Part shown: piece after piece, positions 20,003 to 62,856 of the stretch
Numbering within the stretch: position 1 is the first letter of the stretch
Layout: every line of letters starts with the position of its first letter
Assembly (NCBI RefSeq): GCF_019448085.1
Contig: NZ_JAGFNZ010000001.1
Location: 1 to 64,000 of the forward strand
DNA: 64,000 nucleotides
Reading direction: 5' to 3'
Source: Caproiciproducens faecalis
GTDB lineage: Bacteria > Bacillota > Clostridia > Oscillospirales > Acutalibacteraceae
Position numbers and translations under genes: made by a program
The notes under the pieces: model-generated
What the model was told of the DNA's origin: nothing
Databases searched by the model: none
Seen by the model: the letters and a program-made list of their open reading frames with translations, nothing else

Positions 20003-21577
20003 TTAGTCGCATCCACCTACATCCACCGTCAATCCGGACTTGAACTCCACAGTAAACATATCCTCGTAGACTGTGACCTTCTCAATCAGACGCCGGACAA
20101 GCTGCTCGTTGTATTTGGCGAGGGCTGTGGATTGCTTCTTTAGGAATGTGCTCATATCGGCCATACGCTTCTTTAGCTCATCGCGGTTGGCGTTATCGAG
20201 GAGTAGCTTTTGCTTCTGGTCGCGCAAACGGTGTATTTCGTCGCCAACCTTTTCATAATCCGCATTTGAAGTGGCCAGCTTCAGAAGCTCCGTCTGCAGT
20301 TCTTCGAGCCGCTTGTCGATATCCGTCAGTTCCTTGTCACTTTCGCGGCTTATGACGGCAGCGATGTTGTCCCGCAGAGTAGTGAGGAAGCTGTCCTTGT
20401 CGCAGAGCGCATGATTGATAGCGGTGACGATTACCTGTTCAATTTGACTTTCCGGCACTGTCCTAGCATCACAGAAAAGACCGGTGTTTTCCAGTCGGCT
20501 GGCACAGCGCCAGACGATAGACTTTTTGCCTCGGTTGTTCCAATGTACCCTGCGAAAAACCTCGCCGCATTTGCCGCAGATGATTATCTGTGAAAAGACG
20601 TGGTTGCTGCTGAAGGTTCTTTTCTTCCCGCTCGGGCTGGTGTGGACAATTCGGCGGCGGATAAGCTCCTCCTGCACCTGCATGAATACTTCACGCGGGA
20701 TGATGGCCTCATGGCTGTTTTCTACATAGTACTGTGGAACGATGCCGTTGTTCTTGACCCGCTTCTTTGTAAGAAAATCGACTGTGTATGTTTTCTGCAA
20801 AAGAGCATCACCAGTGTACTTTTCATTCCGCAGAATATTGTTAATGTTGCTGGTGTGCCAGCGCTCATTGCCTGCTCCGTTCAGGATACCGTCAGCCTCT
20901 AAGCCACGGGCAATCTTTAACATGCTCGCGCCTTCAAGGTATTCCCTGTAGATGCGCTTTACGATTTCGGCTTCTTCCGGCACAACCACCAACCGCTTAT
21001 TCTCATCCTTGGTATAACCGAGGAACCGTGCGCAGTTAACTTGAATTTCGCCCTGCTGGTAACGATACTGCAAGCCCAGCTTCACGTTCTGACTTAAGGA
21101 CTGGCTTTCCTGCTGAGCGAGGGAGGCCATGATGGTGAGCATAACCTCGCCTTTAGAATCCATGGTGTTTATGTTTTCCTTCTCAAAATAGACCGGAATG
21201 TTCTTGTCCTTTAGTTGGCGGATATACTTCAAACAATCCAGTGTGTTTCGAGCAAAGCGGCTGATGGACTTTGTGATGATCATATCGATATTGCCGGCCA
21301 TACACTCGTCAATCATGCGGTTGAATTCTTCGCGCTTCTTAGTATTGGTACCGGAAATGCCGTCATCCGCAAAGATTCCCGCCAGCACCCAGTCAGGGTG
21401 TCCTTGTATGTAAGCGGTGTAATGTTCTATCTGTGTTTCATAGCTTGTAGCCTGCTCTTCACTGTCCGTTGAAACACGACAGTAAGCAGCCACTCGGAGC
21501 TTCGGCTTTTCTTCATCTTTACTCTTGAGCGCGTGCTTCCTTGCTGGAATCACAGTGACACTCTTACTTACTGTCAT
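20003..21577 (-). CDS. Large serine recombinase (third of tandem set)
   Basis: The 524-residue protein has an N-terminal resolvase domain (about 28-175) with the catalytic Ser36 in YCRVSTDS, the Arg set in SRFARN, a recombinase domain (185-300), a zinc ribbon ([10 protein letters not shown] ... WRCASR ... CDAR, about 335-375) and a coiled coil (400-480). Such enzymes integrate and excise phages and conjugative elements. Its ATG overlaps the end of the small recombinase gene by 14 bases. It is intact and should be active. It is more distantly related to the first recombinase than a simple duplicate would be. Confidence 0.93.
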
Positions 21578-21995
21578 TCTTGTTCACCTCCATTTCGATT
21601 AAACTATAGGCGTATTCCGCCTGACCGAAGGGGTCGTCGAGTTCCTCTGTTCCTTCTTTCATGCGGAAGGTGGTAGGATAGACGACCTCCTTTACTTGTT
21701 TGGACTTTTTGGTACGGCCGAGTCTTTCCGCCCGCATAATTCGTTCCGCCTCGGCAGTGTTGAAAGTGTCTTTGTCAATTATAGCCGGATAAAACTCATC
21801 ACCTAAATATCGTTTGTTGCGGAGAATCCTGCCAATGCCAGAATGGAAGCCTTTAATACCAGCTTTCTTGGCGGCTGTTGCCAATGAATCGCCGCTCAGG
21901 TAAGATTGGAACAATGTTTTTATCTGCTCTGCAGCTTCTTCATCAATTACGGCTTTTCCGTTCTCAATGCGGTATCCGAATGGTGTGTGTCCCAT
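21564..21995 (-). CDS. Short recombinase-domain protein without catalytic domain
   Basis: The 143-residue protein starts [20 protein letters not shown] and matches only the recombinase (DNA-binding) domain of large serine recombinases: [18 protein letters not shown], then [18 protein letters not shown]. The resolvase domain with catalytic Ser and the zinc ribbon are absent. An in-frame ATG at 22031 has no ribosome site; ATG 21995 overlaps the upstream recombinase stop. Translation is coupled to both neighbours and the frame is clean, so it looks like a maintained gene rather than debris. It may assist the two full enzymes or set recombination direction. Confidence 0.8.
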
Positions 21996-23557
21996 TATTT
22001 CACTATCCTTTCTTTCAGCGTAATGCCACATTTTAGTTCAAATCCAATTTCCGTCCTCGAATATACATGAATCCGATCTACAAAGCGGGTAAAAATTTCA
22101 CCGTCAAAGCTCGTCAACATTGATGTCCTGGATGTAAACTGCAGCAGAGCGCTGACCTCGCTTAGGTTCTGAAAGTCGTTATTTAGAAATCGTGTTATGG
22201 ATTCCTTCTGACGGCGTAGCCGTTCTGCCTCCTGCAGCAGTTCATTATTGCTCTTATTATAAATGGCTGGCTCAAGATAGCCTTTGGTCATCAGCCCAAC
22301 CAGTACATTTCGCTGTTCCGCGTTTTCTTCTAGCTTCTTGTCAAGGGCGCGGATATTTTCCAGAGTTTCATCGGAATTTATTCCGCGCAAGCTAATGAGT
22401 AAAGGCTTCAGGACAGTTTCATGTCCGAAAATGAGCTTGTTCATCATGGTGACAAAGGCATATTCAATATCGGACTCCGGAACGTATTTCATTGAACATT
22501 TTTTGATGTCTGCTATATGAGTGGAGCAGCACCATGCGTATGGATGCTTGCCACTCGTATGAGTCCTTCTTTTGAAGGTTCCGCCGCACTGACCGCAGAT
22601 TATTTTGCCTGAAAATGGATAACGGTTTTGATATTTCTTACTTTGCTTCTCCAGCCGTTTTTCTTTACCGCGTTGTTCGATAATATCCTGTGCGGCTTCA
22701 AATTCCTCATGACTGATAATCGCCTCGTGATGATTCCGAATTAGGTATTGATCTTTTTCTCCATGGTTGTTATGGCGGTTGAAGTGCTCGTCAGTATAAG
22801 TCTTTTGGAAAACGACATCGCCAGTATATTTTTCGTTACCGACCATCCCGCGTATCGTTGTTGAAGTCCAGTGACCACCTTTTTTGGTTGGTATCTTTCG
22901 CCTGTTTAGGTCGTCAGCAATTTTGTTGGTACCTTTACCGGCTAAAATCTCAGAAAAGATAAGACGGACAATTTTAGCTTGAGATTTATTGACAACCATT
23001 TCTCCGTCCACATTATCGTAGCCGTAAGGTGGATAGGAAATTTTATAGGTGCCATTCTGAAACCTGCGCTTTATCGACCATTTGTTGTTTTCGGCAATGG
23101 AGAACGATTCATTTTCAGCCAGTCCACTCAGGATTGACAGCATGAGTTCGCTTTCCATTGACCCCGTGTTGATATTTTCTTTCTCAAAGTAAATGAAAAC
23201 GCCAAGGTCGAGCAGTTTTCTGACCAGTTCCAAGCAGTCTGTCGTGTTCCGGGCAAAGCGGCTGATAGACTTCGTTACAATGAGGTCTACTTTTCTATTT
23301 TCACAGTCGGCAATCATTCGTAGTAACTCAGGCCGCTTTTCCTTTTTGGTGCCGGTGATGCCCTCGTCATAATAAAGTCCGGCGAACTCCCATTCAGGAT
23401 TTGCATTGATATAGGACTCGTAGTGCTTTATTTGAGTATCCAGACTTTCGAGCTGCTCATCGCTGTCGGTTGACACACGGCAGTAGGCCGCAACACGTAG
23501 CTTGGCCTGCTCAGTTAAATCAGTTGTGTTTTGAGCTATTTTCGTTACCTTTTTCAA
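21995..23557 (-). CDS. Large serine recombinase (first of tandem set)
   Basis: The 520-residue protein has the resolvase domain (20-170) with catalytic Ser29 in YCRVSTDS and SRFARN, the recombinase domain (about 178-300), a zinc ribbon (CGQCGGTFKRR ... WCCSTH ... CSMK, about 335-375) and a C-terminal coiled coil. GGAGG lies before ATG. It opens the three-gene recombinase operon, downstream of the SHOCT-like small gene. It probably catalyses integration or excision of the prophage, alone or with the other two. Confidence 0.93.
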   Translation of the reverse strand: MKKVTKIAQNTTDLTEQAKLRVAAYCRVSTDSDEQLESLDTQIKHYESYINANPEWEFAGLYYDEGITGTKKEKRPELLRMIADCENRKVDLIVTKSISRFARNTTDCLELVRKLLDLGVFIYFEKENINTGSMESELMLSILSGLAENESFSIAENNKWSIKRRFQNGTYKISYPPYGYDNVDGEMVVNKSQAKIVRLIFSEILAGKGTNKIADDLNRRKIPTKKGGHWTSTTIRGMVGNEKYTGDVVFQKTYTDEHFNRHNNHGEKDQYLIRNHHEAIISHEEFEAAQDIIEQRGKEKRLEKQSKKYQNRYPFSGKIICGQCGGTFKRRTHTSGKHPYAWCCSTHIADIKKCSMKYVPESDIEYAFVTMMNKLIFGHETVLKPLLISLRGINSDETLENIRALDKKLEENAEQRNVLVGLMTKGYLEPAIYNKSNNELLQEAERLRRQKESITRFLNNDFQNLSEVSALLQFTSRTSMLTSFDGEIFTRFVDRIHVYSRTEIGFELKCGITLKERIVK

Positions 23558-23617: not shown

Positions 23618-23830
23618 TCAAGGCATAATCTCAGCAAATAATGGTGAGAAAGTTTTGCGGTTCAATTCGGTTATCTTGTTGAATTCCGACAAGGTAATTA
23701 AACCTTTCTCAAGCATAGAAGTGAGTATTTGCTGTGCTCTCACATAATCAACCTCACGCTGCAATTGCTCCTGTGGAACAGGTTTCTTCTCATAATTGAT
23801 TTCTGGTATTGCACAAGTAACATTAGTCAT
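23618..23830 (-). CDS. Small SHOCT-like protein upstream of the recombinases
   Basis: The 70-residue protein has a C-terminal short helical motif of SHOCT type: YVRAQQILTSMLEKGLITLS and EFNKITELNRKTFSPLFAEI. Similar small proteins often precede recombinase sets on clostridial elements; their function is unknown. ATG 23830 is chosen for TGGAGGAG eight bases upstream. The 41-bp repeated element at 23864-23904 sits in its leader and contains a stretch complementary to that ribosome site. Confidence 0.7.
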   Translation of the reverse strand: MTNVTCAIPEINYEKKPVPQEQLQREVDYVRAQQILTSMLEKGLITLSEFNKITELNRKTFSPLFAEIMP

Positions 23831-23863
23831 GTATTTCTCCTCCAGTCTGTGAATCTCTGTCTT

Positions 23864-23904
23864 CACTACCCACTGGAGGTGAGAGAGCCTTTTTGACGAA
23901 AAAT
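23864..23904 (-). repeat. 41-bp conserved intergenic element, copy A
   Basis: On the minus strand it reads TTCGTCAAAA, eight variable bases (AGGCTCTC), then TCACCTCCAGTGGGTAGTG. The same blocks with the same 8-base gap occur at 53144 and 57672. It lies between the amidase stop and the SHOCT-like gene. CCTCCAG can pair with CTGGAGG, the ribosome site of the next gene. Confidence 0.85.
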
Positions 23905-23962
23905 AAGCAAAAAAATAACGCCGATTAAAGGACAGAACCCTCAATCGGCATCATCATGTGTG

Positions 23963-26686: not shown

Positions 26687-29041
26687 CTACAGGGACAGGA
26701 GCAGTTCCTGCAGCTGGATCATGACCGCAGCTTTTGGCCGGCCGGTCCCAATGGACAGCCATGTTACAGGCGGGACATCAAAGACTGATGAGGAATCAAA
26801 ACCGTTGATCACCGTAATGACAGGCTCGATGGCTTTTCGAAGCTCCGTAATATGGAACGGCCAGTTTTTGACCGTGGTTTTTCCAGCGGCAATGTCCTCA
26901 TTCCAAATTGTGGAGGATAGACCGTAATAGCTCCGCACTGTGTTTACAGCCATTCGGAGCGTCTTGATATGCGCTGCCTTAACATGAGTTTCGTTCGCGG
27001 TGATTGTCTCAAACGGCGTCGGCAGCACTGTAAAAGTCCGCACAACCTCCGGACTTGCCGACTCGATATCACTATCAAGGCAGCGGATAGTAATCGTGTG
27101 GTTTCCAGCTTCCAAAGTTTCTGCTTGATATATTGTTTTAGCACCGTTGCCGAGATAGCCGCTCGTGGAAAACCTCTCGGGATTGTCTACGCTGTTAACC
27201 CAAGCACCCGCATCGATTTTAACTTCTACAATCTGTGACTGTCCGTCCGGCTCGATGCCTGTTGTAATCATAAAGCGTGGAGTGGAATTATAGATGGAAC
27301 TGCCGGATATCGGACAGACGATAAAGGGAGCAGTCGGAGGACTGTTTTTCTTCACTGTTCCGCTGACTACATAAGAAGAAACAGCGTCTAAGGTATCGGT
27401 TACGCTGATTCGGTAGCGGGTATATGTTCCGATTATCTGAGAGGCATTCGCTGAATACGTCCCCGAGGTGGCACTTGAAACGACGGTAGTCAGTGCTTCG
27501 TATGCTGACCAATTCGTTCCGTCCGTGGAGGTGGCCCGCTGAATGACATACTGTTTAATGGTACTGGTTCCCGGCGCTGCTCCGCTCCACGCAAGGGTTA
27601 CGGTGTTTCCTTCATAGATCGCGGGCGCGGCGGTAAAGGATACCGGAGGCGTTGGAAGTGTATTTTTGCGAACAGTATTGCTGGACACTGTCCAATCAGA
27701 GTAGTAACTTTCACCGGCAGCGCCTTGTGTTCGCACTCTGAACTGACGGTAATTGCCCCTCGTGACGGGAGGACTGACGCTGACACTATTGCTTGTGGAG
27801 GTAGTGTTCACAGTCATCAGGGCTGTCCAATCTCCCCAGTTGATGTTGTTGGAAGAGTCACAATATTGAATTTCATAAGATGTTATAGCATTGCCTGCGC
27901 CGTCAGACGCACCGCTCCACGAGAGGGTTACGTTTCCTTCAGCCAATGCCGCGCTAACTGAGCATACTGTTGGCGCTCCACAGGCCGTGACGTCGCAGTA
28001 GATACTGTTGCTGATTTTTTCTACTGAATAAACATCAAATGTGTCTATCGTCCAAATACCAAATTGCGTATAAGTTCCCGGCGTGCTCGATACAGACGGA
28101 TTATAGCTACCTCCGCTGGCCGACAATGTCAGTGTGACAAGCACATTCCACGCGCTCCAGGTGATATTGTCCGTCGAGGTACGTCTGGCGATCTGGTAGC
28201 CCTTCACCGCACTGGTTCCTCCTGATGCACCGCTCCACGTCAGTGTAATTGTCTCGTTACTGTATACTGAAGGAGATGCAATGGCTGAAGTCGCCGGTTT
28301 TGGAGCGGTATTTCTGCGGACGGAGTTCGTGGATACCTTCCATGCGGAGTAGTAGCTTGCTCCTGCCGTTCCGCGTGTTCGCACTTGGAATCTACGGTAA
28401 TTGCCTCTTGTGGAAGGAGGAGATGTAGCCACACTGCCGCTTGTCGCGGTGGTGTCCACAGTGGCCAGCGCTGTCCATGCTCCCCATGTGGAATTATCTG
28501 TTGAATCGCTGTACTGAATCTCATAACTGGAAATTGCATTGCTTATGCCGCCCAACGCTCCACTCCATGAAAGTGTAACCCCGCCTTCCGAAAGTACAGG
28601 GCTTACCGAACAGGAAGTCGGTGCGGTGCAAGCTGTGGTAAGGAGCGCTGAACTTAACACCGTATAGCTTGAGTTGTCGATTACACCGGAAGAAAGCGAC
28701 ATTCTTCCGTCCGACACCACCTTAAAGCGCACACCCTGTGTGGCGTTTCCCGTTGTGGAAGCACAGGTGACTGTAACATACCTAAGCCTCGGAGTAGTCC
28801 CGTCCCAATCGTCTCCGTCCGCCGCCTTGATGCGCACTTGTGCAGATGAGCCGTTTACGGTCATGGTACAAAGCAAAGCATAACCGCTGTGGATGTATGA
28901 GCCCGAGGAACCCAGCGCAGCGGAGATGGTGAAGTTATAGGTCATCTGGCTGTTGTTCGGACGGCTCTTCGTATAGGTTATGGTGTAATGCACGGTCGGG
29001 CCTGAACCCGCCTGCAATGATATGCCATTAATATCTGCCAT
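26687..29041 (-). CDS. Large tail-fibre protein with fibronectin type III repeats
   Basis: The 784-residue protein contains about five tandem beta-sandwich units of roughly 95-100 residues resembling fibronectin type III domains, marked by recurring CSVSPVLSEGGVTLSWSGA, SYEIQYSDSTDN and RRFQVRTRGTAG stretches (about 140-600). The N-terminal 130 residues form a separate beta domain and the C-terminus (690-784) is helical (HVKAAHIKTLRMAVNTVRSY). Such proteins help phages stick to cell-surface sugars. Domains two and four are close copies of each other. Confidence 0.8.
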   Translation of the reverse strand: MADINGISLQAGSGPTVHYTITYTKSRPNNSQMTYNFTISAALGSSGSYIHSGYALLCTMTVNGSSAQVRIKAADGDDWDGTTPRLRYVTVTCASTTGNATQGVRFKVVSDGRMSLSSGVIDNSSYTVLSSALLTTACTAPTSCSVSPVLSEGGVTLSWSGALGGISNAISSYEIQYSDSTDNSTWGAWTALATVDTTATSGSVATSPPSTRGNYRRFQVRTRGTAGASYYSAWKVSTNSVRRNTAPKPATSAIASPSVYSNETITLTWSGASGGTSAVKGYQIARRTSTDNITWSAWNVLVTLTLSASGGSYNPSVSSTPGTYTQFGIWTIDTFDVYSVEKISNSIYCDVTACGAPTVCSVSAALAEGNVTLSWSGASDGAGNAITSYEIQYCDSSNNINWGDWTALMTVNTTSTSNSVSVSPPVTRGNYRQFRVRTQGAAGESYYSDWTVSSNTVRKNTLPTPPVSFTAAPAIYEGNTVTLAWSGAAPGTSTIKQYVIQRATSTDGTNWSAYEALTTVVSSATSGTYSANASQIIGTYTRYRISVTDTLDAVSSYVVSGTVKKNSPPTAPFIVCPISGSSIYNSTPRFMITTGIEPDGQSQIVEVKIDAGAWVNSVDNPERFSTSGYLGNGAKTIYQAETLEAGNHTITIRCLDSDIESASPEVVRTFTVLPTPFETITANETHVKAAHIKTLRMAVNTVRSYYGLSSTIWNEDIAAGKTTVKNWPFHITELRKAIEPVITVINGFDSSSVFDVPPVTWLSIGTGRPKAAVMIQLQELLLSL

Positions 29042-52359: not shown

Positions 52360-52682
52360 CAGTCATGCACCTCCTTTGCGCCATCCTCCAGCACCTTGGT
52401 GATGAATTTGAGCGCAGTGATGATTGTTTCGAGCTCACAGTCGCCGCCGAGGGTAACTTCGAAACCTTCATCACCATAACGGCCAAGTGGACGCACTTGA
52501 ATATCTGTGCCACCTTCATTCTCAATTCGGAAATAGGTGCGGCTGCCATGTCCTGTATCGCCGCCCTGATAACCGTTCGTGCCGGCTTCGACTTCGAGAA
52601 CATTGGCGCTTACGATTTCACGTTTATAAGTAGGAACTTCTATGCCGCCGATGCGGCGTATACCTTCAGTGATTGCAAACAT
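52359..52682 (-). CDS. Phage protein of unknown function
   Basis: The 107-residue protein (MFAITEGIRRIGGIEVPTYK, GHGSRTYFRIENEGGTDIQV) is beta-rich with an acidic helical C-terminus. It sits between the DUF4406 and primase genes and overlaps both. I recognise no domain. Confidence 0.65.
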   Translation of the reverse strand: MFAITEGIRRIGGIEVPTYKREIVSANVLEVEAGTNGYQGGDTGHGSRTYFRIENEGGTDIQVRPLGRYGDEGFEVTLGGDCELETIITALKFITKVLEDGAKEVHD

Positions 52683-53103
52683 CTTGTACCTCCTCCAAAT
52701 CTTCTGTGAAGTAACGCAGGCGGTAGTTTTTCCACCTGGCTCTTTTGATCTCTACCTGCATGCCGGGAGAGATAGCGCTGCCGAACACCCACACTTCGGA
52801 GCATTTGCTCATGAGAGCATTTCCAAAGAACCATCCCAGTTCACGTTCCTGCGGGTCGGTGTCGTCCATAAACTGCGGAAAGAGCAGATGTGGTGCTACC
52901 GGTATGAACCCATTGTCCACAGCAAAACGGCAATAATCCCGCGCAGCTTTTACATTTTTTTCGATGTCTCCCGCATAGGGAGAGCAAATATATACGATTG
53001 GCCGGAATGCGCGGAGTGCGCGTTCCTCTTTCTCGATTAGCGACAAGGCTTCGTAGGCGGTTGGGTCAGGATAACCTTCGCTATTACGTTTATCAATACA
53101 CAT
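52666..53103 (-). CDS. DUF4406-like (nucleoside deoxyribosyltransferase-fold) protein
   Basis: The 145-residue protein has IVYICSPYAGDIEKNVKAAR, GFIPVAPHLLFPQFMDD and SEVWVFGSAISPGMQVEIKR. These match the DUF4406/DUF7768 group with a Rossmann-like fold related to nucleoside 2-deoxyribosyltransferases. It may alter nucleotides. The start is placed at ATG 53103 (AAGGAGG upstream). The repeated 41-bp element B lies in its leader. Confidence 0.8.
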   Translation of the reverse strand: MCIDKRNSEGYPDPTAYEALSLIEKEERALRAFRPIVYICSPYAGDIEKNVKAARDYCRFAVDNGFIPVAPHLLFPQFMDDTDPQERELGWFFGNALMSKCSEVWVFGSAISPGMQVEIKRARWKNYRLRYFTEDLEEVQDVCNH

Positions 53104-53143
53104 TGTGAGCCTCCTTTCACGATGGGCTGTCATCGCCCGTCTC

Positions 53144-53184
53144 TACTACCCACTGGAGGTGACAGCCCGCTTTTGACGAAAATA
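53144..53184 (-). repeat. 41-bp conserved intergenic element, copy B
   Basis: Minus-strand order is TTCGTCAAAA, eight variable bases (GCGGGCTG), then TCACCTCCAGTGGGTAGTA. GGGCTGTCA (53168-53160) can pair with TGACAGCCC (53132-53124), and CCTCC can pair with the GGAGG of the next gene. It starts directly after the DNA polymerase stop codon. Confidence 0.85.
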
Positions 53185-53185
53185 A

Positions 53186-55126
53186 TCAGTCTTTTTTATA
53201 GAAATTTATTTCGTACCCATCAGCACGGAGCAGAAGTCCCTTCGCCCACGGTGGTGTTCTGCCCATCTGTTCGCAAACTGCCTGAAGAGACATACTCGGC
53301 TCGGCTTCAATGACGATTTCGTCGTGGATGTGCATGACAATCGAGCAGTTCCGCAGTGTCTGCATGGCATAACTTAGAATGTCGCGCGATGTGGCCTGCA
53401 CAATGTTTTCCACGAATTTTGGACCGTAGGAATCGAGGCGTTCCCATTTCTTTGTGCCGCCGACGCCTTCATAGGTGATACACTGTCCGCCGAACTTGTT
53501 CTCGCCAATGCGCGGCTTCACATAAGATAGTCTCCGGCCGGAAGGCAGCGTGATAAAGAGCATCCCGCTTTGGCAGGAGAACATGATGCCATGCGTAATG
53601 TTGGTGTGCTTGTTGCGGACAACCTCAAGCGCAGCTCGGTCAACATCCCACCAAAACTTCACGATATTCGGGTTAGCCTGCCTCCACGCATCAACCAGCA
53701 GAGGAAGCTCGTCCTCGGTTAGTCCCATTTCCAGAGCGCCCATCGCTTTCAGTGCACCGACAGAACCGCCATAACCGAGCGCCAATTCTGCGATTTTGCC
53801 TTTTTGACGCAGGTGGCCGTTGACGCCATGTTTCTCAACTGAAACCTTGAACATCTGGCTGGCGCTGGCGCAATAAATGTCGCCGCCCTTGGCAAAGACA
53901 TTTTGACGCCACTGTTCGCCAGCCAGCCATGCAATCACGCGGGCTTCAATTGCCGAAAAATCAGAAACGATGAACTTCGCGCCGGTACGTGGAATGAACG
54001 CAGTACGGATAAGCTGCGAGAGCGTGTCCGGTACATCTTCATACAGAAGCTCCAGCGCATCGAAATCTCCGCAGCGTACAAGGGCACGGGCCTGCTCCAA
54101 GTCGGGAAGATGGTTCTGCGGCAGGTTATGCAATTGAATGAGTCTGCCTGCCCAGCGTCCGGTTCGGTTGGCACCATAAAACTGGAACATACCGCGAGCA
54201 CAACCGTCGGCACAGACGGCGGCTTCCATCGCCTGGTACTTCCGCACCGACGATTTGGCAAGCTGCTGTCGAAGGGAGAGGGCATGTCCGAGTGGTTCTG
54301 GTGCGGTTTTCAAAAGCTCTGCAACGGCTTTCTTTCCGAGCGTATCCGTTTCCAGCCCGTTATACGCAAGCCACTGCTTCATCTGCTGCACAGAGTTTGG
54401 ATTATCCAGTTCGGTCAGCTTTTTCATAGCCGTAGTGAGCTGTTGCCGAGACTTACTGTCCATGTCAATGGATTGTTTGACCATCACCATATCCAGGGCG
54501 ACGCCACGGTCGTTTATTTCCTGATCGAGGTGGTATTCATCCCACAGGCGATCTGGCACCGGAAACTTAGAGAGCTTCTCTTGAACGGACATTTCCGTTT
54601 CCACATCGCAGGTGTTATACCGCTTGAAGGTTACCCATTTGTCTGGTGCATGATATGGACGATTGCGGGTGCGGCCGTCATTAGATTTTGTAGGAGTGCA
54701 AGGCTGGCAGAAATATTTAATGAGGTCTTTGCCTTCGGTGAGTTTCTGCTTCTCGAGCCCCAGCACTGCACCTACACCTTCCAGCGACAGCGGCAGACCC
54801 ATCGTCGCAGCCCATACCATTGAGCAGCGCCACTGGGACGGGTCGAGATATTCACCGGTCGGCAATCCAAGGAAGCGGGAGAGGCAGATACGTTCGAAAT
54901 TGGCATTGAAGGCCCATTTTGTTACAGTCTCGTCAGTTAGTGCAGTCGTGATTACCTGTGGGAGCTTCTCCCCGCAGGCAAGGTCAATGACCTGAACAGG
55001 ACCACAATCTGCGCTAAAACCGAACAGAAGAATCTCGAAGTCAGGAGCTTCTACATATTTATAAACACCGCATTTGGAGAGCGGTGCGCTGCTGTAGGTT
55101 TCAATATCAATAGAGAGTGTTTTCAT
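53186..55126 (-). CDS. Phage DNA polymerase, family A
   Basis: The 646-residue protein has a 3'-5' exonuclease-like N-terminal domain (DIETYS at 6-11, then NANFERICLSR) and a polymerase domain with motif A SDFSAIEARVIAW, motif B RQKGKIAELALGYGG and motif C HIHDEIV. It is shorter than bacterial PolI and lacks the 5' nuclease, as in many Firmicutes phages. It would replicate the phage genome with the primase-helicase encoded downstream. Confidence 0.95.
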   Translation of the reverse strand: MKTLSIDIETYSSAPLSKCGVYKYVEAPDFEILLFGFSADCGPVQVIDLACGEKLPQVITTALTDETVTKWAFNANFERICLSRFLGLPTGEYLDPSQWRCSMVWAATMGLPLSLEGVGAVLGLEKQKLTEGKDLIKYFCQPCTPTKSNDGRTRNRPYHAPDKWVTFKRYNTCDVETEMSVQEKLSKFPVPDRLWDEYHLDQEINDRGVALDMVMVKQSIDMDSKSRQQLTTAMKKLTELDNPNSVQQMKQWLAYNGLETDTLGKKAVAELLKTAPEPLGHALSLRQQLAKSSVRKYQAMEAAVCADGCARGMFQFYGANRTGRWAGRLIQLHNLPQNHLPDLEQARALVRCGDFDALELLYEDVPDTLSQLIRTAFIPRTGAKFIVSDFSAIEARVIAWLAGEQWRQNVFAKGGDIYCASASQMFKVSVEKHGVNGHLRQKGKIAELALGYGGSVGALKAMGALEMGLTEDELPLLVDAWRQANPNIVKFWWDVDRAALEVVRNKHTNITHGIMFSCQSGMLFITLPSGRRLSYVKPRIGENKFGGQCITYEGVGGTKKWERLDSYGPKFVENIVQATSRDILSYAMQTLRNCSIVMHIHDEIVIEAEPSMSLQAVCEQMGRTPPWAKGLLLRADGYEINFYKKD

Positions 55127-57134: not shown

Positions 57135-57481
57135 TCCGCTGCTCCTCCTCTCCCCAAAGAATCTGTGGATTCTTCGGGGGCCCCGATATCCTCCACCTTG
57201 GCAAGTAGCGCCTTGTAGTTGGCAGGATCAAGCTGCGAGAGCTTATCCGCACCGAACTTTTGAAGCAGCAAGCGAATCTCGGCGGTGTGTCCTTTACGGG
57301 ATTTTTCTGCGAGCACGGCTCTCACTTCTTCCAGTGTCAGTAACGGCTCTGATGCGGGAGCTTCTTCGGCCGGCTCATTAGCGCTAAATGCCTCAGCCAG
57401 CCAGTTTGCCACGTCGCTAATAGCGGCAGCAGCGTTGCGCAGTTCTTCGATAGACGCAGCTATTTCGCTCATTTTGCTCAT
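57131..57481 (-). CDS. Small phage protein, unknown
   Basis: The 116-residue protein has a coiled-coil N-terminal half (AASIEELRNAAAAISDVANW), an acidic linker and a C-terminal helical part (LTLEEVRAVLAEKSRKGHTA, EIRLLLQKFGADKLSQLDPA). Such proteins precede DUF2800 in related phages. ATG 57481 follows GAAGGAG. Function unknown. Confidence 0.7.
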   Translation of the reverse strand: MSKMSEIAASIEELRNAAAAISDVANWLAEAFSANEPAEEAPASEPLLTLEEVRAVLAEKSRKGHTAEIRLLLQKFGADKLSQLDPANYKALLAKVEDIGAPEESTDSLGRGGAAE

Positions 57482-57626
57482 CTGCTTTTTCTCCTTCCAT
57501 GTGTTGACTCTGATCAGCAAGTATTATGAGTTTTCTTGCCAGACGTTTGGACACGACACTGATTGCGGTCAGAACTTCAATAAGCTCCCCGTCTACAGCG
57601 CGGGTCCGGGTATCGGTTCCGTTCAT
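57417..57626 (-). CDS. Small phage protein, unknown
   Basis: The 69-residue protein (MNGTDTRTRAVDGELIEVLT, AISVVSKRLARKLIILADQS) begins 46 bases after element C, with AAGGAGGTG upstream. Its last 65 bases overlap the start of the next gene in another frame. The N-terminal two thirds look coding; the end is less certain. The 41-bp element's TCACCTCC is fully complementary to its ribosome site. Confidence 0.55.
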   Translation of the reverse strand: MNGTDTRTRAVDGELIEVLTAISVVSKRLARKLIILADQSQHMEGEKADEQNERNSCVYRRTAQRCCRY

Positions 57627-57671
57627 CTCGTTCACCTCCTTGGAAGGAGCAGTTGTCGTTTTTGCTCTTTC

Positions 57672-57712
57672 CACTACCCACTGGAGGTGAGGAGGTCGTT
57701 TTGACGAAGAAA
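57672..57712 (-). repeat. 41-bp conserved intergenic element, copy C
   Basis: Minus-strand order is TTCGTCAAAA, eight variable bases (CGACCTCC), then TCACCTCCAGTGGGTAGTG. TCACCTCC is complementary over eight bases to GGAGGTGA, the ribosome site of the next gene. It follows the sigma-like gene. Confidence 0.85.
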
Positions 57713-57771: not shown

Positions 57772-58296
57772 TTAGAATAGGTCCGGGTATTCGCGCTGCA
57801 GGAGTTCTTTGGCCTTTTTCAGGCGGGAAAGAAATGTAGTACGTGGGACGCCAATTTTGTCAGCTATCTCCGCATCGGACAATCCAGACATACGCAGGTC
57901 GCCAATATGACGGGCTTCCGGCATGATTTCAGCGAGACGATGGAAGAGCATGTCCAATATGATCTGGTCGGTAACGACATCTTCGATGCTGTCGCTTGGA
58001 TCGGCGAGCTTGTCCAGCATGGAGAACTCCTCGCCGTCGCTATTTTGGTATGTAAGGTCAAGTGAAAGGTTGTCCCCCGGTGCGTGGAATTTACAGATGA
58101 GGCAGTCGCCGTCGCACATCCAGTGCTTGTCCTTGGGGCACATACACTGGCGATGCGCCTGGGCGCGTTTTCTGGTAGCCCAGATGTCGCGATAGTAGGC
58201 GTAGTACTGCGTCTCAGTGACTTCGACCCACTGCTTGTCATGGGGCAGGTAGATCTTGTAGATACGGGTTTGGCTCTGATTTGCTTCGTTTGTCAT
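57772..58296 (-). CDS. Sigma-70 region 4-like phage regulator
   Basis: The 174-residue protein has an N-terminal part with a Cys-rich stretch (CMCPKDKHWMCDGDCLICKF, possible zinc site, about 50-70) and a C-terminal sigma-4-type helix-turn-helix (GLSDAEIADKIGVPRTTFLS, RLKKAKELLQ). It probably controls early phage transcription. ATG 58296 follows CGGAGGAA; the frame continues upstream to 58464 and a longer form is possible. The ribosome site lies inside a strong hairpin. Confidence 0.8.
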   Translation of the reverse strand: MTNEANQSQTRIYKIYLPHDKQWVEVTETQYYAYYRDIWATRKRAQAHRQCMCPKDKHWMCDGDCLICKFHAPGDNLSLDLTYQNSDGEEFSMLDKLADPSDSIEDVVTDQIILDMLFHRLAEIMPEARHIGDLRMSGLSDAEIADKIGVPRTTFLSRLKKAKELLQREYPDLF

Positions 58297-58335: not shown

Positions 58336-58551
58336 ATCTGCAGAGCTGACCTGAAAAATGGCAATGTTATGCCGTCCGCAGTCCTGACGGATTACTCCGT
58401 TTCGGATTGCAGCTTCCTGTTCAGTAGTCAGCCGTTTGTTATTCTTTTGTCCACCTCGTTGCACTGAACCATCTGTGATCAGCAGATGTACTACAAGGCG
58501 GTGTGGCCTCAGCCACTACAACAATTATCTCAGTATTTAACTCCAAAACCC

Positions 58552-58960: not shown

Positions 58961-61633
58961 ATGGCGGTTAAGAAAACAGAATTATACAGCTCCCTGTGGG
59001 CGAGCTGCGATGCGTTAAGAGGAGGGATGGACTCATCTCAATATAAAGACTACATATTGACGTTGCTTTTTATGAAATACGTCACTGATAAATTTAAAGG
59101 GCAGAAATACGGAGATCTTACTGTATTTGATAAAGCCCATGATCCAAATCCAGACCCAGAGAAAAGAACCGGTTGTTCTTTTGATGACTTTATCGCGCTT
59201 AAGAACAATAAAAATATTGGCGAAGGCATGGATAAAATAATCGCTCGGCTGGCTGAAGTAAACGATAGCCTGAAGGGTGTTATCGACATTGCCCATTTTA
59301 ACGACGAGCAAAAAATTGGTGTAGGACAGGAAATGGTAGATAAGTTGACAAAACTCATTGCTATTTTTCAGCGTCCAGAACTGAATTTTACAAAGAATAA
59401 GGCCGAGGGCGATGACATTATTGGCGACGCTTACGAATATCTGATGCGTAACTTTGCCAGCGAAAGCGGTAAGAGCAAGGGCCAGTTTTATACTCCGGCT
59501 GAAGTTTCTCGTATTCTTGCCAAGGTAATTGGTATTGACCGTTGTAAGAATCATGATGCTTCTATATGTGATCCAGCATGTGGCTCTGGATCACTGCTTA
59601 TTCGAGCTATGGCAGAGGCACCGTTTGATATAGATGGCTGTGGTCAAGAAAAAGATAGCTCGACTGCTGGCCTTGCCAAGATGAATGCTGTACTACATAA
59701 CAAGTCATGGATCACCATCCGTAGCGGAAATACATTCTCAAATCCTCGCTTTATAAAGGATGATGACGCTTCCGAGCTACGCCGCTTTGACTATATTGTA
59801 GCCAATCCACCATTTTCTATGAAAAACTGGACCGACGGTCTTCAGGAGTTCGGCCGTTTTGACGGTTATGGCGACAGACCACCAGAAAAGAACGGTGACT
59901 ATGCTTGGCTACTCCATATACTGAAAACGCTGAAGAACGACGGTAAGGCTGCTGTTATTTTGCCGCATGGTGTACTCTTCAGAGGAAACGCTGAGGAGAC
60001 CATTCGTCGTTCCATTATCGATAAAGGCTGGATTAAAGGTATTATCAGCCTCCCGGCAAACCTATTCTACGGTACCGGTATTCCTGCTTGTATCTTGATT
60101 ATTGATAAAGAAGGTGCCGCAAACCGTCAGGGCATTTTCATGATTGATGCCAGTCATGGCTTTGTTAAAGATGGAAATAAGAATAGGCTGCGCGAACAGG
60201 ACATTTATCGTATCGTCACTACCTTTAACAAGCAGATTACAGATGACCCGAAATATGCTCGGCTTGTGCCGTACAGCGAAATCAAGAACAAGAGAAACAA
60301 CTACAACCTTAATATCACAAGATACATTGATTCTTCTGATAGCGATGATGTACAAAATATCAATGCCCACATTAATGGTGGTATTCCAGCCGCTGACATT
60401 GATGGGCTGAGTAAATATTGGAAAGTATTTGACTCCCTGAGGGAATCTCTCTTTGCGGAAATGCGCCCCGGCTTCTATAAGTTGATTGCGGATAAAGACA
60501 AAATCCGGCATGTGGTTTATAGCAACGAGGCATTCGCCGCTTATGGCGAGCTGGTGGACAAGGCTTTTGTGCAGTGGAAGGAATATTCTTATCCTCAGCT
60601 TACCAGCATCGATGAGGAGCTTGAAATCAAGGAGATGATTGTTGACCTTGCTGAGGAGCTGATTACTCTTTATGAGCCGCTGGAGTTACTTGATAAATAC
60701 GATGTGTATCAAGTGCTTCTGGCGTACTGGAACGAGGTCATGAACGATGATGTCATCATGATCGCCACCGATGAAAAGGGCTATGCACTGGCTCGAGAGA
60801 CTGAAAACATCATGGGCGAATATACCTCCGGCAAAAAGAAAGGCGAAGAAAAGGTTGTTGGCTGGGAGGGCAAGCTTATTCCGAAGGCGATTATTGCTGA
60901 TGCTTTCTTTGCAGCAGAAAAGGCCGCCATTGAAGAGATGGAGGATTTGGTGGCACAGACAGAAGCAAGAATTACCGAACTTATCGAAGAAGCGGATGAG
61001 GACTCCGTCATTACAGAGATTGCCGAAGACGGCAAGATCAAAGCTAAAGATGTGGATGCCAAGATTGCCGAAATACTCAGTAGCGTTACCACACCGGAGA
61101 TAAAAGCGCTTGAAGCCATGTATGCCATATGGTCCGACATAAGTAAGAAAGCAGACTATACCGCTTACATTGCTAAGCATCCGCTATGCAGGTGTGTCCT
61201 TAACGATAAGGGCACTACCAGCAAGAGTGCAGTGTATGGAAAAATAAAAGAACTACGTGCAACGGCTCCTATTCCGGCAGCTTATACCGAGGATTATGAA
61301 ACACTGAGCGCAGTAAGCGGGCTGCTTTCCAAAGTTGATGAGTATACAAAAACGGTGAAAGCTCTTTATAAGGAACTGGATGAAAAGTGCAAGGCTCAGT
61401 ATAAAAAGCTGACCGATGAAGAAATCATTGATCTACTGGTAAACAAGAAGTGGTTTAACACTATCGCCAATGGTATCAATGAGCTATACACAGCCATCTC
61501 TCATAACTTAACAAATAGAATCGTCGTATTAGTTGAACGCTATGAACATACCTTACCGGAGCTTTCAAAAGACGTTCATGATTTCGATTCTAAGGTGAAG
61601 TCACATCTGGAAAGGATGGGATTCACATGGTAA
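58961..61633 (+). CDS. hsdM: Type I restriction-modification methyltransferase HsdM
   Basis: The 890-residue protein methylates adenine in the recognition site. It has the HsdM N-terminal helical domain (1-150, LWASCDALRGGMDSSQYKDY), SAM motif DPACGSGSLLI (about 204), the catalytic NPPF (about 281) and KGQFYTPAEV. It is much longer than the roughly 500 residues of classic HsdM: residues 500-890 form a mostly helical, charged extension (LDKYDVYQVLLAYWNEVMND). Its stop overlaps the hsdS start. Confidence 0.95.
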   Translation: MAVKKTELYSSLWASCDALRGGMDSSQYKDYILTLLFMKYVTDKFKGQKYGDLTVFDKAHDPNPDPEKRTGCSFDDFIALKNNKNIGEGMDKIIARLAEVNDSLKGVIDIAHFNDEQKIGVGQEMVDKLTKLIAIFQRPELNFTKNKAEGDDIIGDAYEYLMRNFASESGKSKGQFYTPAEVSRILAKVIGIDRCKNHDASICDPACGSGSLLIRAMAEAPFDIDGCGQEKDSSTAGLAKMNAVLHNKSWITIRSGNTFSNPRFIKDDDASELRRFDYIVANPPFSMKNWTDGLQEFGRFDGYGDRPPEKNGDYAWLLHILKTLKNDGKAAVILPHGVLFRGNAEETIRRSIIDKGWIKGIISLPANLFYGTGIPACILIIDKEGAANRQGIFMIDASHGFVKDGNKNRLREQDIYRIVTTFNKQITDDPKYARLVPYSEIKNKRNNYNLNITRYIDSSDSDDVQNINAHINGGIPAADIDGLSKYWKVFDSLRESLFAEMRPGFYKLIADKDKIRHVVYSNEAFAAYGELVDKAFVQWKEYSYPQLTSIDEELEIKEMIVDLAEELITLYEPLELLDKYDVYQVLLAYWNEVMNDDVIMIATDEKGYALARETENIMGEYTSGKKKGEEKVVGWEGKLIPKAIIADAFFAAEKAAIEEMEDLVAQTEARITELIEEADEDSVITEIAEDGKIKAKDVDAKIAEILSSVTTPEIKALEAMYAIWSDISKKADYTAYIAKHPLCRCVLNDKGTTSKSAVYGKIKELRATAPIPAAYTEDYETLSAVSGLLSKVDEYTKTVKALYKELDEKCKAQYKKLTDEEIIDLLVNKKWFNTIANGINELYTAISHNLTNRIVVLVERYEHTLPELSKDVHDFDSKVKSHLERMGFTW

Positions 61634-62856
61634 AGGAAGGTTACAAACAAACAGAAGCAGGCTTTATACCTGAGGATTGGGATACGATTACCTTTAGGGA
61701 ATGTTTTGATGTGCTTCCGAATAATACGCTTTCTCGTGCAGAGCTGAACTACAACAGTGGCAAGATAAAAAACATCCATTATGGTGATGTGTTGATTAAG
61801 TTCCCGGAGATACTGGACTGTGAGCGTGAAACGCTTCCGTTTGTAAACCCGGAATGTGTTTCCAAGCTCAGTACAGCCGTGCTTCAGGACGGCGACATTA
61901 TCATTGCGGATACTGCCGAAGATAATACTGTTGGCAAAGCAACCGAAGTCATCGGAATTGGAGAACAACGCATTGTATCTGGTCTTCATACAATTCCTTG
62001 CAGGCCAAAACAGAAAGATCGCTTTGCTCTGAAGTGGCTAGGCTATTATGTAAACCATCGTGTTTACCATGATCAGTTGCTGCCCTTTGTCACCGGCATT
62101 AAGGTTTCTTCTATATCAAAAGGGGCTATAGCTGATACGGTTATTGCCATACCAAAAAAAGATGAGCAAAAACACATTGTTGAGGTACTCTCTGATATGG
62201 ACAATCTCATTATTAGCCTTGAAGAACTTATTGTAAAAAAGAAGGCTATTATGGAAGGCGCAATGCAAGAGCTGTTGACAGGCCAGTGCCGACTTCCGGG
62301 ATTTGAGGGAGAGTGGAAGAACTTTGCTCTCAGTGACGTTGCCACAATCGTGATGGGACAGTCGCCAGATTCAAAATATTATAACGAAGTGCAAGGAACT
62401 CCCCTTGTTCAGGGAAATGCAGATATAGAGAACAGGAAAACCATTATTCGTTTTTACACTACTTGTGTTACAAAGCAAGCATACAAAGGCGATATTATTT
62501 TTACAGTTCGCGCACCCGTTGGGAATGTTGCACATGCGACATTTGACTGTTGTCTTGGCAGAGGTGTGTGTGCCTTTAGAAATGCATCGCAGTTTCTATA
62601 CCACCTTTTAGTATACAAACAAGAATCTTGGTCGGAACTGTCAACAGGATCAACGTTTGATTCTATTAACTCAGATAATTTAAGTAAAGTAGAGTTCAAT
62701 ATGCCAATAGATGAGGGTGAACGCGATGCTATCGCTGAGGTGCTAACCTCTATGGATTCCGAAATAGAATCCCTTCAGTTAAAACTTGAAAAATACAAAA
62801 AAATGAAATCTGGCATGATGGATGAGCTTCTCACCGGAAAGGTCAGGTTAGTGTAA
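61627..62856 (+). CDS. hsdS: Type I restriction-modification specificity subunit HsdS
   Basis: The 409-residue protein has two target-recognition domains (about 10-180 and 225-375), each followed by a conserved helix spacer (DEQKHIVEVLSDMDNLIISL and ERDAIAEVLTSMDSEIESLQ). The repeats KKAIMEGAMQELLTGQCRLP and KMKSGMMDELLTGKVRLV mark the two half-sites. It chooses the DNA sequence recognised by the complex. ATG 61627 overlaps hsdM by seven bases. Confidence 0.93.
   Translation: MVKEGYKQTEAGFIPEDWDTITFRECFDVLPNNTLSRAELNYNSGKIKNIHYGDVLIKFPEILDCERETLPFVNPECVSKLSTAVLQDGDIIIADTAEDNTVGKATEVIGIGEQRIVSGLHTIPCRPKQKDRFALKWLGYYVNHRVYHDQLLPFVTGIKVSSISKGAIADTVIAIPKKDEQKHIVEVLSDMDNLIISLEELIVKKKAIMEGAMQELLTGQCRLPGFEGEWKNFALSDVATIVMGQSPDSKYYNEVQGTPLVQGNADIENRKTIIRFYTTCVTKQAYKGDIIFTVRAPVGNVAHATFDCCLGRGVCAFRNASQFLYHLLVYKQESWSELSTGSTFDSINSDNLSKVEFNMPIDEGERDAIAEVLTSMDSEIESLQLKLEKYKKMKSGMMDELLTGKVRLV

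Follow-up and report, generated by a model that had tools for sequence, protein, structure and literature searches.

The first 64,000 nucleotides of contig NZ_JAGFNZ010000001.1 of Caproiciproducens faecalis (hereafter the window) include a prophage in which a short bipartite element recurs three times, in each case shortly before a gene. Here, we present a computational analysis of these copies, A, B and C, and of their counterparts in related phages, prophages and satellite-like elements. Judging from sequence comparison, the three copies are likely the promoters of one phage regulon, read by the phage's own sigma-like factor.

The element and its gene context

The element, TTCGTCAAAA-N8-TCACCTCCAGTGGGTAGT, has exactly three exact copies in the window, all on the minus strand (23900-23865, 53180-53145 and 57708-57673), and 100 shuffles gave 0 matches with up to three mismatches allowed. 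Beyond A, B and C, the 18-base 3' block has no fourth site in the 3.0-Mb assembly at up to two mismatches. Each copy lies 3' of a stop codon and, by hand count, 34 (A), 41 (B) and 46 (C) bases 5' of the likely start codons at 23830, 53103 and 57626. The initial annotation of this DNA had described three copies with invariant spacing, located between a stop codon and the next gene and 33-46 bases before its start, and both points hold, the copies being exact and absent elsewhere in the assembly. It had also judged the element unlike a protein-coding remnant, a candidate that we rejected as well, since at none of the three sites is the FVK...SPPVGS translation in frame with the gene that follows (hand count). 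As had been proposed, the element is common to the recombinase, metabolism and early (replication) operons. The features of the three sites are as follows.

23891..23900 (-): 5' block of copy A, TTCGTCAAAA, a CGTC-type box proposed to serve the phage sigma-like factor as its -35-like element
23865..23882 (-): 3' block of copy A, TCACCTCCAGTGGGTAGT, which would be both the core promoter half and the 5' arm of a hairpin sequestering the Shine-Dalgarno sequence (SD)
23839..23846 (-): 3' arm, ACTGGAGG, which includes the SD of the gene after A and has its complement CCTCCAGT at 23879-23872
23914..23955 (-): terminator-like hairpin and T-run directly 5' of copy A (1 found, 0.2 expected)
23618..23830 (-): first gene after A, SHOCT-domain protein, then serine recombinases (20003-23557)
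53171..53180 (-): copy B 5' block
53145..53162 (-): copy B 3' block
53158..53168 (-): copy B 5' arm GGGCTGTCACC of hairpin P0, arm pairing tested over 34 B sites
53124..53134 (-): 3' arm GATGACAGCCC of hairpin P0 at copy B, ahead of the SD (53114-53110)
52666..53103 (-): DUF7768 / nucleoside 2-deoxyribosyltransferase-like gene following B, its start codon moved here from 53133
57699..57708 (-): copy C 5' block
57673..57690 (-): copy C 3' block
57632..57639 (-): SD for the gene that follows C, GGAGGTGA, with TCACCTCC (57690-57683) as its complement
57642..57672 (-): P2, an inner hairpin at copy C with arms 57672-57664 (GGAAAGAGC) and 57650-57642 (GCTCCTTCC), seen by eye with no statistic of its own
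57417..57626 (-): first gene after C, small protein, opens the operon of the DUF2800 nuclease, single-stranded DNA (ssDNA)-binding protein and DNA polymerase
57775..58296 (-): phage sigma-like factor of 174 amino acids, adjoining copy C, proposed reader of the 5' block

The gene 5' of copy A encodes an amidase and the one 5' of copy B a DNA polymerase. For the gene after B, a start at 53103 is more likely than one at the first ATG (53133), given the GGAGG at 53114-53110. The small protein after C (57417..57626) has no Pfam or PHROG match. We take the Enc34 ssDNA-binding protein to be the same as DUF2815.

Element types across related phages

Our comparison set comprised 84 loci: the window, three named phages and 80 viral loci taken from the polymerase region. 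The same sites are held by IMG/VR contigs, by three annotated Candidatus (Ca.) Heliusvirales phages from human faeces and by prophages of other genomes, with B sites in 52 and C sites in 58 of the 84 loci; for C, five false matches (L060, L065, L072, L075 and L079) and one locus without a usable site (L088) were removed from 64 candidates. The gene borders carrying copies are the same three in different phages. The 3' half is kept across loci and the distance between the blocks is constant, the G of the 5' block being at the expected column in 105 of 112 sites, with a 1-base shift fitting better in 7. The 5' block, which had seemed fixed because the initial annotation rested on one genome, varies by type between phages, with more than ten types across Ca. 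Heliusviridae-like gut phages. These include CGTC-A, CGTTC, CGTCC, CGGCC, CGGTC, CGCTC, CGCC-A, TGTAC, TGTTC, GGACC, GGGCC and TTCCG.

The same 5-mer was found at B and C in 36 of 38 non-identical phages, whereas shuffling of partners gave a mean of 5.5 and a maximum of 14 (10,000 shuffles). These 38 pairs remained from 41 after three duplicates were dropped, and in two loci with tandem B copies (L082 and L102) the first was counted, the second giving an agreement of 34/38. All eight phages readable at all three sites have a matching unit at A, B and C (the window, NatCom_21982, NatCom_11393, NatCom_35866, G324, the two G292 prophages and G002), and the two G292 prophages, residing in one bacterium, differ in type (CGGCC vs TGTAC).

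The window carries eight of the nine genes shared by Ca. Heliusviridae according to the list excerpted from PMC9226167, namely DUF2800, Enc34 ssDNA-binding (DUF2815), polymerase A, SNF2, terminase, portal, Clp protease and capsid; no VRR-NUC match was obtained with the one candidate tested. According to the same excerpts, Ca. Heliusviridae, the family to which these phages appear to belong, is reported for 190 of the 196 people of one cohort, in their bulk gut phage populations (PMC9226167).

Two observations concern sites that depart from this pattern. In L068 (IMGVR_UViG_3300029822_001164), the C box is CGGCC, matching its own factor, and the B box is TGTAC; the contig is perhaps recombinant or chimeric. 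Another conserved string, GTTGACATTTTTCCCATGTAAGT, takes the C-site position in L072 (~4489) and L079 (~4495), where no true C element was found, and also inside satellite arrays (L190 at ~5529 and ~5744, L192 at ~5747); it is possibly the promoter of another factor type.

The sigma-like factor and its recognition helix

The protein next to copy C combines a Cys-rich N-terminal domain, a linker resembling sigma region 3.2 and a sigma region 4 helix-turn-helix (HTH) with the recognition helix PRTTFLSRLKKAK. It has the region 4 HTH fold of the sigma-70 family, and its linker and C-terminus align with region 3.2-4 of SigA and RpoS. Judged by titles and residue numbers, the structure matches listed, which cover the C-terminal part only, are sigma factors or holoenzyme chains numbered as sigma, and the N-terminal profile matched no solved chain at E up to 10. 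The factor was found in 17 of 300 genomes of the host family (E up to 1e-10).

By comparison across phages, the type of the 5' block was found to go with the recognition helix of the factor encoded at 57775-58296. Over 39 proteins, the correlation between recognition region and C box was 0.50 with the N-terminal part held constant (0/5000 permutations, largest 0.25), and that between N-terminal part and C box given the helix was -0.08. The helix PRTTFLSRL goes with CGTC-A, PRSTFRSRL with CGTCC, RQSTINYKK with CGTTC, RNTFxYRRDK with CGGCC, QRTFADQMK with CGCTC, RKTFTDR with CGCC-A, DWYKSKAVYREK with TGTAC and ARSTFKRRW with GGACC; a counter-example is L100, where PRTTYIYRRDK occurs with CGTCC. 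The clearest example, a natural one, is the pair NatCom_21982 and NatCom_11393, whose factors are 95% identical in the N-terminal part and 27% in the recognition region, and whose boxes differ at all three sites (TGTTC vs CGGCC). Edge blocks excluded, their 100-base blocks are 86-99% identical around B and 89-100% around A, except for one of 72% with an indel.

The box was also predicted for 23 further proteins with an element, the nearest helix being right in 18 and the nearest N-terminus in 13. As these include the window itself (L121) and the contig of L069 (L209), the stricter counts are 16/21 for the helix and 11/21 for the N-terminus. Nearest-helix identity is 0.59 or less in four of the five failures, and four factor-like proteins had no element within 330 bases.

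Proposed promoter geometry

If the box is taken as the -35, the invariant TCCA(G/T)TGG comes to lie one canonical promoter spacing downstream, with a conserved A near +15. The conserved TCCA(G/T)TGG...T..A half would then be the core promoter and start region, transcription would begin near the A at +15, counted from the T of TCCA (predicted near 23862 for copy A, 53142 for B and 57670 for C), and the Cys-rich N-terminal domain, or a partner, would stand in place of sigma region 2. A scan of 200 bases around each copy revealed no gene-strand promoter of the sigma-70 type. Upstream, C sites have an aligned A/T tract (-40 to -32), and a hairpin like a terminator was seen by eye 5' of C, where the program did not find one. 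Overlapping copy B is a sigma-70-like match on the plus strand (window 53159-53186, GTGACA-16-AATAAT, 10/12; 0.2 expected). The block was also considered as a -10 of the extracytoplasmic function (ECF) type with an upstream -35, and CGTC, CGTT and TGTA presumably resemble ECF -10 motifs; this possibility was dropped because the region-4 helix goes with the box and the sole aligned upstream signal is off the -35 spacing.

Arrays of the element in satellite-like elements

The viral contig L006 holds six units in a row with differing boxes, and its neighbouring genes encode a divergent Cro/C1 repressor, a D5-type primase, a Phage_capsid protein, TnpW and a large serine recombinase (Pfam names for L006 and L154). 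Loci with related primases were collected from viral contigs (30) and from genomes (19), the latter including Anaeromassilibacillus senegalensis, Neglectibacter timonensis, Lacrimispora defluvii and Oscillibacter sp. ER4, and 40 of these loci were scanned after exclusion of 5/30 viral and 4/19 genome loci in which the primase start was cut off or the match partial. Arrays were found in 15 of the 40 loci, comprising 14 of 15 genome loci and 1 of 25 viral loci, which is L006 itself. No unit was present in the other 25 of the 40, of which 24 are viral contigs and some have less than 140 bases upstream; a primase relative in G292 has no unit either.

Arrays have 2-7 units with 2-6 distinct box types. 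All 68 units point towards the primase and none was found on the opposite strand (0.5 expected from shuffles keeping single-base composition), and 27 of 49 intervals between units measure 58-61 bases, with six more near two or three times that. With L194 omitted as a near-duplicate of L193, 45 of 63 units have a box 5-mer known from phages, against 15 for column-shuffled units (largest 25 in 2000 shuffles). The nearest phage element by the 3' part alone has the same box in just 11 of the 63 units, and we therefore make no claim that the 3' half goes with the box type. Arm pairing in array units is not significant (350/5000), and the hairpin was accordingly rejected as a property of every unit. 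That box and spacing are kept without a nearby ribosome site argues for promoters, the RNA layer described below belonging to phage gene starts.

The gene set of these elements is like that of a phage-inducible chromosomal island (PICI): in BLAST with the L006 proteins, the 15 array loci gave a primase and a recombinase in 15, a capsid protein in 14 and a repressor in 13. No structural gene beside the capsid was recognised by eye in two lists of open reading frames (ORFs), the scan covering part of the ORFs. Four loci were examined for cargo, which includes Shedu, restriction genes (type I and Eco57I-like) and a Bro-N protein. No plasmid copies were found with the L006 array as query. Capsid-encoding PICIs (cf-PICIs) have a divergent repressor, a primase, an HK97-like capsid gene, a recombinase and defence cargo; the satellites here differ in their large serine recombinase and TnpW, and in a control region formed by a mixed promoter array. 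In one genome (G269:C3), a prophage factor at 139202 and an array-bearing satellite-like element at ~178400-187900 lie close together.

Satellites may thus listen to many helper factors by way of their arrays, in which case mixed types would let whichever helper's sigma-like factor is present switch on the satellite primase-capsid operon.

Predicted pairing with the Shine-Dalgarno sequence

The initial annotation had pointed out complementarity between the element and the ribosome site of the following gene. CACCTCC is indeed complementary, and at C the pairing is kept between phages in a mismatched-partner test: over 36 C sites, pairing of the 5' arm is at -13.1 kcal/mol with the SD region of the same phage and at -12.0 kcal/mol with those of other phages (0/5000). 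At B, the 5' arm pairs with its own segment upstream of the SD, forming P0, at -17.6 vs -12.6 kcal/mol for mismatched partners (34 B sites, the window's own B being merged with a similar site; 0/5000). The box itself gives neither pairing signal (3425 and 1759 of 5000). The 8-base gap, which had been regarded as free sequence, is thus variable as stated and not free, as the surrounding segment pairs with downstream sequence.

For copy A, the predicted openness of the SD is 0.002 in read-through RNA, 0.62 in RNA starting from +15 and 0.22 when the 5' part is shuffled. Mean predicted openness rises from 0.12 to 0.48 at A sites (n=8) and from 0.16 to 0.34 at C sites (n=36) when the upstream start is replaced by the +15 start. 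In some B sites, a hairpin followed by a T-run looks terminator-like by eye. On folding models, the untranscribed 5' half at A and C would be complementary to the downstream SD, so that read-through transcripts would fold and silence the gene, and the promoter's own transcripts would start inside the hairpin and hence be translated. At B, the same 5' arm would form another hairpin, followed in some phages by a T-run like a terminator.

Protection against read-through is known from the IS10 transposase. In phage T4, read-through RNA of gene e hides the ribosome site, and RNA from the late promoter does so no longer, being without the 5' arm (extracts of PMC3014915). The predicted likeness to T4 genes e, soc, 49 and I-TevI is that long upstream transcripts hide the SD and that a phage promoter in the 5' arm frees its own transcripts (PMC3014915). 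The present case differs in host phylum and promoter type, and here one segment serves several operons per phage, with another hairpin at B.

RNA families and further observations in the window

An Rfam scan of the window gave only RF02960 (DUF2800 RNA) at 58344-58501 (-) and a tRNA. With permissive filters, copy A had two chance-level matches, both below the gathering threshold, and membership of an Rfam family was rejected for the element, on which no model reached the gathering threshold. Whether the element belongs to the RNA motifs named after DUF2800 and DUF2815 had been left open in the initial annotation; for the DUF2800 RNA the answer is no, since Rfam places RF02960 at 58344-58501 instead. 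DUF2800 RNA occurs in the same phages, one gene upstream of C; it differs in sequence and place, and A, B and C do not match RF02960. Of 11 further sources scanned, three resemble the window in having this RNA just upstream of the sigma-like gene and not of DUF2800 (window 58344-58501; L059 3712-3869; L069 3482-3639; L106 1912-2069). The gene that it regulates may be the sigma-like factor.

Downstream of copy A, in window 20003-23557, a small recombinase-like ORF is flanked by two large serine recombinases. Type I restriction-modification genes, HsdM and HsdS, adjoin the prophage early region (58961-62856, +), and direct repeats with ~330-base spacing occur at 27576-28576 within a large minus-strand ORF (26687-29041).

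Weighing the explanations

The element fits a DNA promoter bearing an additional RNA layer better than a riboswitch-like device. Of the two options in the initial annotation, a structured RNA or a bipartite binding site, the bipartite protein site was the better half of the idea. The post-transcriptional switch put forward as the main function found no support: spacing is invariant, the 5' block co-varies with a DNA-binding helix, and units are kept in arrays far from an SD.

Several observations weigh against a promoter read by a sigma-like factor, or against parts of it. The core half is G+C-rich with no recognisable TATAAT-like hexamer, and the sigma-70-like match at B stands on the opposite strand, pointing away from the gene. 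The window factor scores below curated cut-offs (TIGR02937 31.1 vs 42.9 bits; Pfam Sigma70_ECF 17.0 vs 21.1), and Pfam scans of eight factor members gave no region 2 model at E up to 0.1. The boxes at B and C disagree in L066 (partially, the types being related) and L068, or in four phages on a stricter count. Extra units of another box type occur within ~100 bases of A (L146 at 5032 in G292; L039 at 5193 in NatCom_35866), and in NatCom_35866 the unit nearest the gene is the odd one, the matching A unit being the farther of the two. Since the phages are related, permutation values overstate independence. For the RNA layer, SD pairing at B sites is not above that of mismatched partners (2634/5000), a weaker P0-like signal also appears at C sites (13/5000), and the SD of the window's B is predicted to be open either way (0.93 vs 0.96). 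Openness at C is clearly up in 21 of 36 sites and down in 4, and shuffling the 5' part gives 0.22 for A and 0.21 for C, where the native read-through value is 0.16; as the shuffled C value is not far above the native one, much of the difference at C, and part of the closing at A as well, is due to RNA length alone.

In an unlikely alternative, the RNA begins at the 8-base segment or 5' of it, and on a phage signal its leader switches between an SD-sequestering form (P1+P2) and an open one (P0), the 5' block being a regulator's RNA or DNA site; primary transcripts would then not start downstream of TCCAGTGGG. Such an RNA switch would account for 5'-arm pairing, which involves the SD region at C and the pre-SD region at B (0/5000 each), and for the weaker P0-like signal at C (13/5000), and UCACCUCC presumably copies the 16S anti-SD sequence. 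However, block spacing is constant (105/112) where an RNA would tolerate variation, the type of the box goes with a sigma4-type helix, both blocks are kept in array units that are distant from an SD and show no significant arm pairing, and SD pairing at B does not exceed that of mismatched partners. We regard it as rather unlikely that the HTH protein is a classical activator or repressor, with the element as its operator and an ordinary host-type promoter nearby. The sub-threshold scores of the full-length protein, the failure to find region 2 and the equal scores of NarL-type response-regulator HTH domains and sigma by sequence would all suit this, yet the linker and C-terminus align also with region 3.2-4 of SigA and RpoS, the structure matches listed are sigma factors or holoenzyme chains, the 200 bases around A, B and C have no gene-strand sigma-70-type promoter, and a simple operator needs no conserved second half at constant distance.

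The reverse complements of the box (TTTTGACG, TTTGAACG and TTTGGCCG) resemble TTGACA, and the plus-strand match GTGACA-16-AATAAT (10/12; 0.2 expected) overlaps B, which would fit a -35 of promoters facing away from the genes and producing antisense RNAs. This is very improbable, as no such match occurs at A or C and the first hexamer of the match at B is not the box; a terminator-like hairpin would stand in the path at A (found for the gene strand) and at C (by eye only, not by program), the conserved second half lies on the gene side at constant distance, and all array units face the primase (68 vs 0). We give hardly any credence to a repeat spread by recombination, or a mobile repeat, with no regulatory role: satellites do hold arrays of ~60-base units, but copies occupy the same three gene borders in different phages in one orientation and share their box type with the local factor.

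Relation to known systems and significance

Xpf of PBSX reportedly drives phage operons, and we know of no domain in SigO-RsoA comparable to the Cys-rich domain found here. As described in extracts of PMC10141391, Xpf is likewise a prophage-encoded factor of similar size with sigma region 4; it has both sigma2 and sigma4, whereas in the factor described here region 2 was not found, region 3.2-4 is preceded by a Cys-rich domain and many helix types exist. SigO-RsoA, in which the sigma regions are divided over two proteins, provides a precedent in the same extracts for a sigma without a part (PMC10141391). The nearest recorded case to satellites answering helpers is that of P4 and P2, where, according to extracts of PMC8628076, the helper activator Ogr and its satellite homologue delta both promote late genes of P2 and P4. 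The elements here differ from P4 in carrying, in tandem, 2-7 promoter units of 2-6 box types, and we noticed no homologue of the factor in them, no search having been aimed at one.

Among literature titles and abstract openings, with subscription journals and preprints outside the scope, we found no description of the helix-box code, the promoter, the factor or the arrays. From what can be read in the sequences, the parts appear to be of known kinds, with the helix-box code and the mixed arrays having no matching description in that literature. We lean somewhat towards a broader view, in which a gut phage lineage uses a sigma-like factor with a Cys-rich domain for region 2 and a helix exchanged among more than ten specificities, satellites sharing its hosts carry polyvalent promoter arrays with at least one unit per helper type, and a helix swap with concerted box change would be an escape from being read by satellites.

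The element would join promoter choice and the silencing of read-through RNA, a combination known from T4, in unrelated phages. A factor with an unknown N-terminal domain poses the structural question of what opens the promoter. If the proposed code is true, it would be a readable protein-DNA code, from helix to box, by which regulons would be predictable from sequence in uncultured phages, and the array of a satellite would name its possible helpers.
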